A stretch of DNA of 26,613 bases from a virus. A program made the translations under genes and the position numbers. The notes below the pieces were generated by a model. The model worked only from the letters and a program-made list of their open reading frames with translations. It had not been told where the DNA came from and did no database searches. The stretch spans positions 1 to 26,613 of the IMG/VR virus record IMGVR_UViG_3300037225_000364; one strand, 5' to 3'. Shown here piece after piece: positions 15,603 to 24,731 of this stretch (position 1 is the stretch's first letter; the number at the start of each line of letters is the position of its first letter).

Positions 15603-18359
15603 CTAATTCACAATCCTGCCACCCTCTCTAAACCAACAATTCATGGCATTCAATTCGAGCGGGTTTTGATGTGTAGCAAGTTGATTCATGAGCGCATCGT
15701 CATAAGTCAGTGCTATCCTTAAGTATTGCCCATATTGCGTAGAGTAGAAACGGTACCAGGCATATTGAGATCCCGAAGTATAAGGCTGGCCATTCGTTGG
15801 CGAACTGTTCCATATGCCCCCTCCTGCATAAGCTGTAAATCCTGTCGCATCAATGCCGTTCAAGCTGAAATTGTTAACATCGATGACCGTGACCGTGAAA
15901 TTTCCCATCATATTGAGCTGAACCATGCCGAGCACATTGCCAATTGCGATGAGCGTTCCCGTGGTCAAACTATGATTCATGCTTGTGATGATACAAGGAT
16001 TTGTCTGCTGCGCATTTGAGATATAACCGGCATTTTGTGATGAATTGAGAAGTTCAAAATTGCCAAGCAGCATGTTGGCTTGAGAATCCTGAGAGACATA
16101 GGAATTGACAAAGAGCTGAATAGTGATTGCCGGAATTGCCGGCGATGCCTGATTAGAATCCAGCTGAAAGTCAATGAATGACAGCTTGAATTGCTTGCCT
16201 GCACTCTGGAATGGGTTGAAATCTTTGCCGACAATGTTCATCTTAGGAAACAAGGTGATCTGACCGCCGCCAAGGTAAACGGCCGATGAGACAAAACTTT
16301 GCGCCACGTAATTTGTTCCATCCCAGAGGCCTAGCGTTAATGTATTTACATCGACAACACTGACATTATAAATGATATTGTTGATAAGCGGATCCGTCCC
16401 AGTCCAGAGGGTGCCAGTGATGTAGATAATTTCGCCATTGAGAAGGTTATGATTCGGCACGGTGAATTGCGTCGGACTAAGGCTAAAATTGACACCCATG
16501 ATCGTGAGCGACGGCGCAAATAGTGTCGGCGCAGGAACCATGGTAGAGGCATCCTGATTCTCATAGATGAAGATGTAGCCCTGCTGGTTGCCGGCAGTCA
16601 CATAATCGACATATGCCTGATCATCGACATTATCCCAGGACGCATCACTTTCCCAGTATGTCGTCAAACTGTCCCAGGTGATGGCAAATTGGAATTGACC
16701 AATTCCGAAGCATGTGATATTGTCTCTGAATTGCGCCCATGTGTTATTGCGATAATTGAATAAAAGCGTAGCATTCGGAAAGTTCTGCGTATTCTGAGAT
16801 TGGGATGAATCCAGGTAATTCCAATAGACGACCTCCTTCTCAAAGTCGCGGACCCCATGGACGAAATTCGGCCCATTGTTTTGTATTTCGAAGCTGAAGA
16901 CGGTCTCAGGAATTTGGTCATCAATGCGTGAAATGCCGGCAGCTCCTGCCTGTATAATCCCACGGTCACTCACCGTCATAATGCCTTGATCAAAGACAAT
17001 TGGGCTATATGTACTCACAGAACCAAAATCGGAACTGATGCGCTCAAAGATGAATGGAAGGCCATACTCGCCAATATAACGAAGTTGCCACGTGGAATAT
17101 TCGAAAAAGACAATAAGCGTATTGCGATGAAATGCCGCACTCACTATTGACTCATTGGTAGGGGCGTCGAGAAAACCGCCAAGGCCGAACATATCATAAC
17201 GCCACGCGTCGGCAGCTATCGGGTTTCCAATCTGGCTAAAGTTGCACCTGGAATAATTGTTGACTGCTCCAAGATAGCCACCACTGGTCAAGCCCTCCCA
17301 AGTGTTGAGCGCAAGAAGACGCCCATAATATGGAATGATGATTAATGCCTGATAAAGGGTTGTTGTTGCAGTCGTCAATGGCTGTAAATTAGTCCATGCC
17401 GAACCATCATAATAACGTATAGGATCATACGTCGGAGGAGTGGCCGCTTGATGAATGTTGTTATTCGTAACAAAGAAATAACGTTCATCGGGAGTCACGC
17501 CTTGATAATTGGCCGCCCAAAAGAAATCGGTATCTGTTCCTGTCCATGTCGTGCCGAGAACTAACTCTTGAAAACCGCCGACGACATATTGATAGGCGTA
17601 TTTCGTATCGAAGTAAATCGTGTTGTCGATGCCTAATTGGGATGTATCTTCTTTCAATATGCCCATGACCGGCAATTGAGGATAATATGAAAAGCTGATT
17701 GTCGCCGCCGTCCCTGGGGTCGTCGTTGAAAAAATCGTTGCAAACGAAGTAAGATAGTTTATTGTCCCATAGTTATTAACATTGATGCTTACCCACATGC
17801 CGCCGCTAGTATAAGCACCAAACCCAGTCGAATCGACCCCATTCAATGTAAAAGTATCGGCTCCTGTGACGGTTATAGTATATGTGTTTCCATTGAGCTG
17901 CGTCATACCTCCAACGCCTGAAATGGTCACTGTTGACCCTGTGAATAAATGATGTGCGGGACTTGTAATCTGACATGGATTAGCTTGAGTAGCTCCTGTT
18001 ATCATCCCTGTCTGAGCGAGCACGCCATTTCCTTGGTCTGTAAATGTTGTTCCGCCATAAACGATGACGACAGAGCCAGGAATAATTACAGCATCGGGTT
18101 CAGTAATGGGAGGAGTGAGAAAAGCATAGATAGAAAAAGGAACGCCGTAGACAATTCCTGTTCCTAGGCTCGCAGCGGTCAATATGCGGCGCAACTGGCC
18201 GACGCCGACCGTTCCTTCACGCTTCTTCGTCCTCTCGCGCCATACATAGGCATTCTGCAAATCAGAGAAAGCTTGGTCAGCAAGCATCAAAGGCTTACGG
18301 TCAGTGACCAAGCCACCGTCCGGATATCCGCCTATCAGCACTTGATGAAATGATGACAT
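15603..18359 (-). CDS. Large tail/head-completion protein with repeated domains
   Basis: 918 residues. The N-terminus (GGLVTDRKPLMLADQAFSDL, NAYVWRERTKKREG) resembles phage packaged-DNA stabilisation or tail-hub proteins (P22 gp10-like). Two copies of a beta domain are clear: residues about 138-190 (NPCQITSPAHHLFTGSTVTI, MTQLNGNTYTITV, GVDSTGFGAYTSGGMW) and about 790-845 (NPCIITSMNHSLTTGTLIAI, GIDATGFTAYAGGGIW); a third, more distant copy starts near residue 615. The central part has tryptophan/tyrosine-rich repeated strands as in a propeller. Likely part of the tail hub that closes the portal. AGGAA precedes the ATG. Confidence 0.7.
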   Translation of the reverse strand: MSSFHQVLIGGYPDGGLVTDRKPLMLADQAFSDLQNAYVWRERTKKREGTVGVGQLRRILTAASLGTGIVYGVPFSIYAFLTPPITEPDAVIIPGSVVIVYGGTTFTDQGNGVLAQTGMITGATQANPCQITSPAHHLFTGSTVTISGVGGMTQLNGNTYTITVTGADTFTLNGVDSTGFGAYTSGGMWVSINVNNYGTINYLTSFATIFSTTTPGTAATISFSYYPQLPVMGILKEDTSQLGIDNTIYFDTKYAYQYVVGGFQELVLGTTWTGTDTDFFWAANYQGVTPDERYFFVTNNNIHQAATPPTYDPIRYYDGSAWTNLQPLTTATTTLYQALIIIPYYGRLLALNTWEGLTSGGYLGAVNNYSRCNFSQIGNPIAADAWRYDMFGLGGFLDAPTNESIVSAAFHRNTLIVFFEYSTWQLRYIGEYGLPFIFERISSDFGSVSTYSPIVFDQGIMTVSDRGIIQAGAAGISRIDDQIPETVFSFEIQNNGPNFVHGVRDFEKEVVYWNYLDSSQSQNTQNFPNATLLFNYRNNTWAQFRDNITCFGIGQFQFAITWDSLTTYWESDASWDNVDDQAYVDYVTAGNQQGYIFIYENQDASTMVPAPTLFAPSLTIMGVNFSLSPTQFTVPNHNLLNGEIIYITGTLWTGTDPLINNIIYNVSVVDVNTLTLGLWDGTNYVAQSFVSSAVYLGGGQITLFPKMNIVGKDFNPFQSAGKQFKLSFIDFQLDSNQASPAIPAITIQLFVNSYVSQDSQANMLLGNFELLNSSQNAGYISNAQQTNPCIITSMNHSLTTGTLIAIGNVLGMVQLNMMGNFTVTVIDVNNFSLNGIDATGFTAYAGGGIWNSSPTNGQPYTSGSQYAWYRFYSTQYGQYLRIALTYDDALMNQLATHQNPLELNAMNCWFREGGRIVN

Positions 18360-22368: not shown

Positions 22369-22432
22369 CTATATGCCTGTTGAGCGTAAGTTTTGGATCC
22401 AAAGGTCATTCGTGATGCACTGCCCTTGATAA
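22369..22432 (-). CDS. Major capsid protein, exon 4 (C-terminus)
   Basis: 64 nt. Joined after exon 3 it encodes FYQGQCITNDLWIQNLRS then TGI and stop. The segment ITNDLWIQNLR is the expected C-terminal strand of N4-gp56 major capsid proteins (typically ITNDxWxxNLR). It has no start codon of its own and lies directly after the HNH-bearing intron. The start at 22432 follows from the phase of exon 3 and from the rule that a group I intron ends in G (22433). Confidence 0.8.
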
Positions 22433-23227
22433 CGCTCTATTACTTTCCCCTGCATCTGGGTACTGACCCTTTCGGGCGGGAACTACTCTTCGGAAGTTCC
22501 TCTAGCGGTTTCCTCGCTAGTCTTGACTGTCGCATATCCTTTCGGATTTCTCCCGCTCAGTCGATCACGGTGGAATTTGACCCTATTATGCACCATAAAG
22601 TGACAACTTTTGCAAACCCATATCACATCAAGAGGTTTAGAATAATCAGGATGATGGGCCTCTATAACGCCCTTATCGCTGCCACAAAGAGAACATATTG
22701 TTGGCCTTACTATCTTGCCATAACATACTGCATTACTCAGCAGGCTTCTTGCTCTAGCCTTCTCAGGATATTTCTGTCTTAAGATCAATCCTTGCTGCTT
22801 ATACTTCTCTCTGCCTTTCTCAGTCTGAAAATATTTCTTTTGACTGACTCTAGCTTTAGCCCTGAATTTATCAGGATCTTTGTGATAAGCATCACGATCT
22901 TGCTCTCTAATGCGTTCTCTATTGTTTTCCCTGTATTTGGTTCTTTTTTCTCTCTTCTTTTCTTGATTTATGTTTGCTTTCTCATACTCTTGCATGCACT
23001 TTTTGCATCTTGAGTAATAACCGTCTTTGTATCTAGAACTTTTTCTAAATTCATCAAACGATTTAGTTTCTTCACATTTGGCACACTTTTTCATCTGACA
23101 ACTCCTTTATTGTTATCAGGTGAAGTGTATCATATTCCTTCCGCCTTGTCGCCATAATTATGCTGCAATCGCATAATCACAGGCTTCCAAGTCAATCAGG
23201 GAAAATTTACCCTCGTCTATATCGTCA
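22433..23227 (-). ncRNA. Group I intron 3 of the capsid gene (795 nt, with HNH ORF)
   Basis: 5' site: exon end CTCGTT pairs with the internal guide GACGAG 10 nt later, giving a 6-bp P1 with the U-G pair at the junction. Next comes the block CTGATTGACTT (23189-23199) shared by all three introns. The 3' part, after the HNH frame, keeps the order seen in introns 1 and 2: a stem with arms GGAACT/AGTTCC, then CGCC, then a short stem, then AAAGTAATAG shortly before the 3' end G at 22433. The sequences differ but the pairings are retained. Confidence 0.8.
22483..23094 (-). CDS. Intron-encoded HNH homing endonuclease
   Basis: 203 residues. N-terminal CxxC...CxxC zinc module (KCAKCEETKSFDEFRK, SRCKKC), a very basic helical linker (residues about 40-110) that likely contacts DNA, then the HNH domain: CSLCGSDKGVIEAHHPDYS and WVCKSCHFMVHN near residues 135-170, with the paired His and zinc cysteines all present. 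It is expected to cut intron-less alleles of the capsid gene and so drive intron spread. A strong ribosome site (AAAGGAG) precedes the ATG. Its 3' end reads into the ribozyme core; the stop lies within the GGAACT/AGTTCC hairpin. Confidence 0.88.
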   Translation of the reverse strand: MKKCAKCEETKSFDEFRKSSRYKDGYYSRCKKCMQEYEKANINQEKKREKRTKYRENNRERIREQDRDAYHKDPDKFRAKARVSQKKYFQTEKGREKYKQQGLILRQKYPEKARARSLLSNAVCYGKIVRPTICSLCGSDKGVIEAHHPDYSKPLDVIWVCKSCHFMVHNRVKFHRDRLSGRNPKGYATVKTSEETARGTSEE

Positions 23228-23258
23228 AACGAGCAACCGGCTGTATGTCTTAACATGC
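23228..23258 (-). CDS. Major capsid protein, exon 3 (31-nt micro-exon)
   Basis: Only 31 nt, between introns 2 and 3. With one base from exon 2 and the first base of exon 4 it encodes CMLRHTAGCSF, which fits the N4-gp56 position written DPLxxxxTVGxKF in relatives. Exon 2 ends in phase 1 and exon 3 in phase 2, and only these junctions restore one frame to ITNDLWIQNLR. Borders come from P1 pairing of both flanking introns and the terminal G rule. Confidence 0.75.
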
Positions 23259-23499
23259 CCATCTATTACTTTTATGACCTAGTTTGCTAGGCGGGCTAGT
23301 CCTCTCGGCTAACCTCTCTATGTTTCCATAGAGTCTAGAGTACCGCATCACCCTTTCAGGTGTCTTCTCGCTTACTGCGTTCACGCTGCAAGAGCATATT
23401 GCTCAGCTTGCGCCTTGTTGTCTTCGGCATTACCCGCTAAGAGATTCAAGTCAATCAGAGAAGATTTTAGATCCGCAAATGTTTGATAATCAATGGTTA
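23259..23499 (-). ncRNA. Group I intron 2 of the capsid gene (241 nt, ORF-less)
   Basis: Exon 2 ends GATCCGT, which pairs over 7 bp with the guide GCGGATC 23 nt into the intron, with the junction U opposite G. The shared block CTGATTGACTT is at 23448-23458. The 3' half shows a stem CTCTATG/CATAGAG, a stem GGTTA/TAGCC, CGCC, a stem CCTAG/CTAGG and AAAAGTAATAG, ending in G at 23259. The short length and lack of ORF suggest a minimal ribozyme that could be mobilised by the nuclease of intron 3. Confidence 0.82.
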
Positions 23500-23935
23500 A
23501 CGGATCATTGTTATATCCAGGAGGCAAGTAAATGAACCTTGCCTTACCGCCAGCCTGCCACACAACCTTGTAGGACTCTTTAGCCGCAACGAAGCAGTTG
23601 GCGATGTCATTGCCAAGAAGCGAAGCCCCTGGCGAGACAGAACCTTGCTCGGAGATAAAGAATCGCACGTTGTTAGCGCCGCCGATCTCGGTAGAAAGCG
23701 TCTGCGTGATGTTCGGATACTGGAATTTCTTAGTAAATCCGACCATGTTATAGAGAACAGGGATCATACGGCTTGTAAGCATACAACCGTAGGCATCACC
23801 GATCGGGCTTGTGCCGAACTTCAAATCCGCTTCCACGATATTCGTGATGTACTCAGCACTATTGTTTTGCAATATTGTGAATACGTCGTCGATATCGGAA
23901 ATTGTCATCTCCGTCGGAATATCGCCATTTTGTCC
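23500..23935 (-). CDS. Major capsid protein, exon 2
   Basis: 436 nt: 145 codons plus one base. It begins GQNGDIPTEMTISDIDDV, contiguous with exon 1 ending INCVG, giving the INCVGGxNGDxPTE stretch expected in this family, and continues through GGANNVRFFISEQGSVSPG to IYLPPGYNNDP. Reading on without splicing adds about 39 intron-encoded residues (KSSLIDLNLLAGNAEDNKAQ...) and then stops, so the natural frame in the unspliced DNA is misleading; an unspliced frame beginning TTG at 23938 is not a separate gene. Confidence 0.85.
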
Positions 23936-24314
23936 CAAAATCTGTTACTTTTGTGACCTACAATATATTGTAGGCGGGCTAATCTTCTCAGCTAGCCTCT
24001 CTATGTCTCCATAGAGCTCAGAGCACCGCATCCTAACAACTCTCTTTTCCAACCCCCTACCAATCTTTTTTCTAATGATTTTGGTAGAGGTGAAGTTGTG
24101 GTTAGGTCTTCTCGCTTGCTACGTTCAGGCTGATCATTAATATGAATATTGCAAAACCATTTATTTTCAATATATCCACCAGTCTCAGTGTGTTTATTGA
24201 ATCTTGTTTTGCAATATTTACATTTCATAATCTTGCCCCTTTTTGTCCGTTCGCTTACGCGACGAGGAGTTTAAAGTCAATCAGAGAAGATTTAACGTGG
24301 GCAGATTGTCGTTT
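23936..24314 (-). ncRNA. Group I intron 1 of the capsid gene (379 nt)
   Basis: The exon end GTGGGT pairs with the guide GCCCAC over 6 bp (12-nt loop) with U-G at the junction, and the intron ends in G at 23936. The shared block CTGATTGACTT lies at 24274-24284. Its 3' half matches intron 2: stem CTCTATG/CATAGAG (23999-24005, 24010-24016), stem GGCTA/TAGCC, CGCC, and stem CCTAC/GTAGG (23957-23961, 23970-23974). The last stem is CCTAG/CTAGG in intron 2, a compensated change. Numbered helix assignment beyond P1 is not attempted. Confidence 0.85.
24001..24228 (-). CDS. Intron 1 ORF, small zinc-binding protein
   Basis: 75 residues. Starts KCKYCKTRFNKH and continues to WFCNIHIND, a Cys4/His-type zinc site in the first 30 residues. 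The later part is encoded by intron core sequence and is probably not under protein selection. The ATG has AAGGGG upstream. No HNH or GIY-YIG motif is left, so it may be the remnant of a homing endonuclease or a DNA-binding helper. The ORF sits in a peripheral loop of the intron, where group I introns usually carry ORFs. Confidence 0.4.
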   Translation of the reverse strand: MKCKYCKTRFNKHTETGGYIENKWFCNIHINDQPERSKREDLTTTSPLPKSLEKRLVGGWKRELLGCGALSSMET

Positions 24315-24731
24315 ACCCACACAATTTATGATACTGGCTGAACTTTCGAGATTATCGCGTTGAAGCGCATCCTGAGTTTCTCGCAATGCTTGACCCAAAC
24401 GTGCCGCAGCACTATTCAGGACAGGATCTTCGTTGGTTATTGTCACCTGGCGAGTTAATACCATATACGTGGCATACACTCTTACGCGACAATCGACATC
24501 AACCCTATTGAGCTGTTGTGGCGGAGGATTCGACTGTGCATCGTCAAGAGGCACCTCGAATAGATCAAGGCGGTCATAACGTGACTGCCTATCGATAAAG
24601 CCATTATTGTCCGGCAACTCAACAGGAGACGCAAAAAGATTGTGAATCAAATTGTGCTCAGGAGTTGACAGCAATTTAGCATTGTAACGCTGCTGTATCT
24701 GTGGAGGCAGCGATGCAATTGAAACTGACAT
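24315..24731 (-). CDS. Major capsid protein (N4-gp56 family), exon 1
   Basis: 417 nt, 139 residues. N-terminus SVSIASLPPQIQQRYNAKLL then TPEHNLIHNLFASPVELPDN, and DVDCRVRVYATYMVLTRQVT; RLGQALRETQDALQRDNLES leads into SIINCVG. These segments are typical of N4-gp56 capsid proteins. Spliced with exons 2-4 the protein is 315 residues, normal for the family. ATG 24731 is better spaced from AAAGGA than the ATG two codons upstream. It directly follows a scaffold-like gene, the usual capsid order. The frame runs 20 codons into intron 1 before a stop. Confidence 0.88.

Follow-up and report, generated by a model that had tools for sequence, protein, structure and literature searches.

Three predicted group I introns of one family in a phage N4-gp56 capsid gene, and core-less inserts in related genes that appear to depend on a neighbouring ribozyme

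How can a phage produce its major capsid protein from a gene that is interrupted three times? The question is raised by a 26,613-base IMG/VR virus record (IMGVR_UViG_3300037225_000364; the whole of this stretch is called the window here), in which the N4-gp56 capsid gene of an uncultivated phage is read on the minus strand from 24731 to 22369. A purpose-written spliced alignment of the joined protein to the minus-strand DNA places four exons of 417, 436, 31 and 64 nt, which together give 315 codons and a stop and are separated by three inserts (Table 1). The exon lengths and the single reading frame proposed in an initial annotation of this DNA are confirmed by this alignment. The joined protein matches TIGR04387 with 100.9 bits (E = 8.1e-29, positions 5-317 of 324), above the curated cut-off of 60 bits, and is thereby assigned to the N4-gp56 major capsid proteins. 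Taken alone, the two large fragments score 50.6 and 38.9 bits, under that cut-off, so routine annotation is expected to leave them unnamed.

Relatives of the gene fix the boundaries of the inserts. A capsid-protein scan of IMG/VR returned 166 relatives, and among the best 80 of these, which were retained, most are unbroken at all three sites and encode the same residues there (for example, NNDPCMLRHTAGCSFYQGQCITNDLWIQNLR). The exons lie flush with the intact relatives, and the joins lose no residue in 315. The nearest relative, L004, is 95% identical over exon 2, carries intron 1 only and runs contiguously across the second and third sites. The family score and the residues of the uninterrupted relatives thus both favour the spliced protein put forward initially.

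All three inserts display the junctions of group I introns. In each, the last base of the 5' exon is U, the junction end of P1 is a U.G pair and the last base of the insert is G, at boundaries fixed by the uninterrupted relatives; the three P1 pairs first read from the letters are present as described (Table 1). The block common to the inserts, CTGATTGACTT, occurs exactly at 24284-24274, 23458-23448 and 23199-23189, and TTYYCTGATTGACTT is found with at most one mismatch at only these three positions in the whole record. Furthermore, a nucleotide family profile trained on relatives and on window intron 2, with introns 1 and 3 outside the training set, has three hits in the window, one in each intron, and no others there (E = 3.7e-18, 9e-13 and 8e-12). 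Across 211 distinct family introns, a P1 of at least 6 bp forms in 87%, compared with 8% when exon flanks are swapped between sites, and the guides vary between sites, each fitting its own exon. A P10 of at least 3 bp is found in 54% of the family introns and in 9% after swapping.

The catalytic core could be located with the help of an intron that occupies the intron 1 site in another relative, L036. With 38.7 bits (E = 2.4e-6), under the gathering score of 50, this intron aligns with the Rfam group I model RF00028 (Intron_gpI) over P7, the S element and P9, which allowed P3 and P7 to be placed in the window introns: P3 is CUUCUC/GAGAAG in introns 1 and 2 and UUUUCCC/GGGAGAA in intron 3, and P7 is AGCA/UGCU, AGUA/UACU and GACUG/CAGUC, respectively. 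In an alignment of 31 family introns that includes the window's three, 97.8% of cells at the named P3, P7 and P8 pairs are paired, against 72.1% in shuffles, with a covariation score of 0.718 that falls to 0.205 on shuffling and to at most 0.19 when the partner strand is slid. P3 is paired in 98.2% and P7 in 99.4% of cells, and double changes occur in 109 cells, against 24 in shuffles.

Several observations weigh against assigning the inserts to group I. RF00028 returns no match to any of the three introns even at E<=10. In the covariation alignment the P8 hairpin loops of window intron 1 (W_I1) and L109_227 were shortened by hand, which left the counted pairs untouched; putative P4-P6 strands were read by eye (CTTG/CAAG in introns 2 and 3, CTTT/AAAG in intron 1); and P10 is weak in the window, where intron 1 has three flush base pairs and introns 2 and 3 have one each. 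The initial annotation had regarded a missing Rfam match as fatal to its proposal. That test is unsound because the L036 intron at the same site itself reaches only 38.7 bits, under the gathering score; RF00028 shares core helices with this matching member, yet it detects none of the window's introns and hardly any family member in the scanned loci. Rfam alone was dropped as a test of group I identity, since the model misses this intron family. Given the uninterrupted relatives, the covarying P3, P7 and P8, the P1 helices with their U.G pairs and the TIGR04387 score of the joined protein, the inserts are almost certainly group I introns of one family that interrupt an N4-gp56 capsid gene, as was first proposed.

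On this assignment, the guide near the 5' end of each intron would form P1 with the 6-8 bases that end the upstream exon, with U.G at the cleavage site. From group I biochemistry, an exogenous guanosine bound in P7 of the P3-P8 core would cut after the U of P1, and the freed exon would attack after the terminal G of the intron, the 3' site. Three such rounds would join the four exons into one mRNA for the 315-residue capsid protein. That the window introns splice, and how efficiently, we infer. The endonuclease open reading frame in intron 3 probably drives homing, because its family, phrog_2340, is reported in DNA polymerase introns of Bastillevirinae (PMC11878797).

A possible but unlikely alternative is that these group I introns need a protein factor, or splice inefficiently, and so regulate the amount of capsid instead of riding as neutral passengers. 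Such behaviour has a precedent in Bastillevirinae, in which four of eight spliced genes were spliced only in infected cells (PMC11878797), whereas the intact core helices in the window would speak for self-splicing competence. Decay of the gene into a pseudogene, or an artefact of assembly, with frame-breaking insertions that stay unspliced, is extremely improbable: the sub-threshold scores of the separate fragments and the silence of the Rfam model would fit, but the exons join flush with intact relatives at a cost of 0 of 315 residues, the inserts have covarying P3, P7 and P8 and site-specific P1 pairings, and the same intron 1 recurs in L028, from another metagenome.

The capsid genes of relatives are heavily colonized by the same family. 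Co-occurrence was counted in three sets (A, B and C), fetched by protein and blind to introns, containing 203 complete, distinct genes; these sets were used because a scan with the 15-mer TTCTCTGATTGACTT alone was unspecific, about half of the loci from two motif scans holding this capsid family. Spliced alignment of the very distant L111, L125, L166, L236, L256, L273 and L284 gave implausible introns, which were not relied on. At least one full intron is present in 104 of the 203 genes, and the family occupies more than 60 insertion sites in the capsid gene. Within the window's clade, 0, 1, 2 and 3 full introns are found in 40, 24, 2 and 1 genes, while two other capsid clades reach 4 and 5 per gene. 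The initial remark that three introns in one phage capsid gene would be unusual therefore holds among described phages and within the window's clade, in which three full introns occur in 1 of 67 genes, but not in the wider group, with up to five. The intron 1 site is also occupied by family introns in L004, L035, L036, L047, L055, L063 and L082; the intron 2 site, among the relatives examined, is occupied in the window only. In the 80 loci fetched by capsid protein, all 36 cores detected by the family profile sit in or at the capsid gene.

Side observations bear on how the family moves. P7 of introns 1 and 2 contains a bulged base, G(T)AGCA and G(C)AGTA, a variant that is uncommon in the aligned family members and suggests the spread of one core within the gene. 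Between L004 (1925-2306) and the window (24314-23936), the intron ends are near-identical and the middle differs, with another open reading frame and a P7 of GACTA/TAGTC where the window has G(T)AGCA/TGCTC; recombination may have exchanged the core. Some motif-fetched loci (L287, L137, L092, L098, L141, L276, L290, L206 and L108) carry family introns in other phage genes, which by inspection of their open reading frames include an unrelated capsid gene and portal-like, tape-measure-like and reductase-like genes.

The window itself contains no core-less introns. Among its relatives, 6 of the first 80 (L010, L053, L056, L059, L070 and L074) have a frame-breaking insert of 38-47 nt at codon 80, and further inserts of 28-79 nt lie at codons 85, 87/88, 90/91, 103/104 and 114, with numbering that shifts by one between clades (carriers at codons 88, 91, 104 and 114 include L303-L305, L306, L309, L371, L402 and L406). 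These micro-introns are preceded by U, end in G and form a 6-8 bp P1 that has U.G at the junction. The bases just 5' of the guide usually match the downstream exon as P10, with at least 4 bp flush in 87% of 52 distinct micro-introns, compared with 0.9% when swapped and 1.9% when shuffled; the aligner favours U and G at junctions and P1 served as a filter, while P10 played no part in choosing them. At codon 80 the P10 pairs covary with the downstream exon (GCCGU/ACGGC, GCCGA/UCGGC and GCAGG/CCUGU). Each of the 52 either disrupts the frame or includes a stop codon, which rules out insertion of extra residues into the protein and means that the capsid could not be made unless they were removed. 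They have no P3-P8 catalytic core of their own, for which 28-79 nt leaves no room, and for this reason are not filed as group I introns. Their P1 and P10 define both splice sites, as in a trans-excision substrate, and these core-less elements appear to work as substrates of a group I core.

Longer inserts at codon 104 follow the same plan. About nine loci have core-less inserts of 946-987 nt (such as L389 3598-4547, L414 3614-4559, L418 2417-3403 and L437 1976-2951), in which the guide lies some 24 nt before the 3' end and P10 is flush. The family profile finds no core in them, and there is no Rfam match in L414. A LAGLIDADG open reading frame (PF00961, E = 1.3e-8 and 7.9e-10) lies inside the P1 loop, and a small full intron follows downstream, 38-54 nt away in those measured. 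In L389, L414, L437 and L454 the full intron near the core-less, homing-gene-bearing intron is only 196-213 nt long, as if ribozyme and endonuclease had been divided between two adjacent elements.

What, then, removes an intron that has no core? Micro-introns are present in 48 of the 203 genes, and in all 48 a full intron lies 24-96 nt downstream; in genes without micro-introns, the same region holds a full intron in 26 of 155 (Fisher p = 6e-28, uncorrected for descent). Micro-intron site 88.0 has its partner intron at any of six different sites, and L406, L409, L411, L433 and L435 each carry two micro-plus-full pairs in one gene. On the capsid tree the presence of micro-introns changes 44 times; of about 11 phylogenetically independent pairs, 8.3 link the micro-intron to a nearby full intron and 0 show the opposite (median p = 0.008). 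The most parsimonious account is that a single group I core would take out both its own intron and the core-less intron upstream of it. At micro-intron sites 87.0 (L093) and 85.1 (L208) there are full introns whose guide is closely similar, and this suggests that micro-introns arose from full introns by loss of the core. We consider it quite probable that the core-less elements are dependent introns that have kept P1 and P10 (in some cases with the P1 loop holding a LAGLIDADG gene), have lost the core and are excised by the ribozyme 24-96 nt downstream.

It is improbable that the short inserts are carried along by co-conversion with the downstream intron while a different factor splices them. 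Both elements differ between close relatives, in keeping with the 44 state changes on the tree, as homing with co-conversion predicts; however, site 88.0 pairs with six different partner sites, six micro-intron sites in three capsid clades each have a partner within 96 nt, and a lone micro-insert was never seen. Translational bypassing as in T4 gene 60, with its gap of comparable size, is very improbable and was dismissed on codon mismatch and phase: the inserts, at 28-79 nt, fall within the T4 size range and carry a hairpin at their 5' edge, but the matching take-off and landing codons that bypassing requires are absent (at site 80, GAT versus ATG or TTG), several inserts interrupt codons in phase 1 or 2, and the U.G junction, the flush P10 and the strict presence of a downstream full intron would be left unexplained.

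Table 1 Features of the capsid gene and its introns in the window
Feature	Position	Strand	Basis
Capsid exon 1, 417 nt, ends ...GTGGGT	24315..24731	-	Spliced alignment, uninterrupted relatives
Predicted group I intron 1, 379 nt, codon 139 phase 0	23936..24314	-	Spliced alignment, P1, family profile
Capsid exon 2, 436 nt	23500..23935	-	Spliced alignment, uninterrupted relatives
Predicted group I intron 2, 241 nt, no ORF-bearing loop (ORF, open reading frame), codon 284 phase 1	23259..23499	-	Spliced alignment, P1, family profile
Capsid exon 3, 31-nt mini-exon	23228..23258	-	Spliced alignment; unbroken in L004, L006, L007
Predicted group I intron 3, 795 nt, endonuclease ORF inside, codon 294 phase 2	22433..23227	-	Spliced alignment, family profile
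Capsid exon 4, 64 nt including stop	22369..22432	-	Spliced alignment, uninterrupted relatives
Intron 1 guide GCCCAC, P1 with exon GTGGGT 24320-24315	24297..24302	-	
Intron 2 guide GCGGATC, P1 with exon GATCCGT 23506-23500	23470..23476	-	
Intron 3 guide GACGAG, P1 with exon CTCGTT 23233-23228	23212..23217	-	
Intron 1 P3, 5' strand TCTTCTC; 3' strand GAGAAGA	24284..24290; 24113-24107	-	
Intron 2 P3, 5' strand TCTTCTC; 3' strand GAGAAGA	23458..23464; 23369-23363	-	
Intron 3 P3, 5' strand TTTTCCC; 3' strand GGGAGAA	23199..23205; 22554-22548	-	
Intron 1 P7, 5' strand G(T)AGCA; 3' strand TGCTC	24117..24122; 24025-24021	-	
Intron 2 P7, 5' strand G(C)AGTA; 3' strand TACTC	23373..23378; 23342-23338	-	
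Intron 3 P7, 5' strand GACTG; 3' strand CAGTC	22558..22562; 22529-22525	-	
Intron 3 ORF, 203 aa, phage endonuclease family phrog_2340	22483..23094	-	E = 4.2e-36, positions 8-164 of 171
Small ORF, 75 aa, CxxC motif, overlaps intron 1 core, no family found	24001..24228	-	

The intron 3 endonuclease has an HNH-like zinc motif by inspection and no Pfam match at E<=0.01, and the 3' end of its open reading frame overlaps the ribozyme core. Intron 2 is compact and has no endonuclease-like open reading frame. Elsewhere in the window (15603-18359, minus strand) lies a 918-residue structural protein of the virion structural family phrog_3287, the repeats of which match PF16190 (E1_FCCH; 1.5e-22). The capsid has no close cultured relatives, the best phage records being about 25-27% identical. 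It occurs in just two genome-bin contigs, from metagenome-assembled genomes of Verrucomicrobia (L300, 40.4 kb, 85% identical) and Acidobacteria (L301, 40.7 kb, 66%); both contigs are phage-genome-sized and offer a weak hint of the host phyla.

Against the general expectation that phage group I introns prefer genes of nucleotide and DNA metabolism, the family has invaded, at dozens of sites among relatives, a structural gene that has to be expressed at a high level, so its splicing must match the demand for capsid, and it is overlooked by standard models and annotation. If the dependence of the core-less elements is real, it would be an example from nature in which a single group I core removes two introns, a parallel to the proposed group II origin of spliceosomal introns and a simple RNA system in which to test how self-splicing introns decay into introns that retain only splice sites and share a catalytic RNA.

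Some of these features are already known separately, namely an intron in a capsid gene (PMC3706429) and three introns in one phage gene (PMC11878797). For the capsid intron of LittleE, a Cluster J mycobacteriophage, and the tail-gene intron of BAKA, splicing was established by reverse transcription PCR and protein sequencing (PMC3706429). LittleE resembles the window in that its major capsid gene holds an intron of group I type, with exon U, intron G and an endonuclease open reading frame; it differs in having a single capsid intron and a capsid of the HK97 gp5 type. Bastillevirinae genes hold up to three group I introns each, with exon skipping on record, and the colonized genes serve mainly nucleotide and DNA metabolism (PMC11878797). 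Twort orf142 and the Bastillevirinae share with the window several group I introns in one phage gene and phrog_2340 endonucleases within introns, but their host genes encode tail tube, DNA polymerase, terminase and reductase proteins, whereas the window's is a capsid gene. New here are the combination of a capsid gene with three introns, an intron family invisible to Rfam and the repeated invasion of one capsid gene.

For naturally core-less or dependent group I introns, literature searches of partial coverage gave engineered cases only or nothing. Engineered trans-excision ribozymes need only P1, P9.0 and P10 (PMC4094466). These and the spliceozymes remove a short internal segment under the guidance of P1 and P10, as we propose for the core-less introns. 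They are laboratory constructs, however, whereas the relatives of the window would be a natural case in which the ribozyme is tethered 24-96 nt downstream of its substrate; the window would then show the autonomous state of the same intron family.

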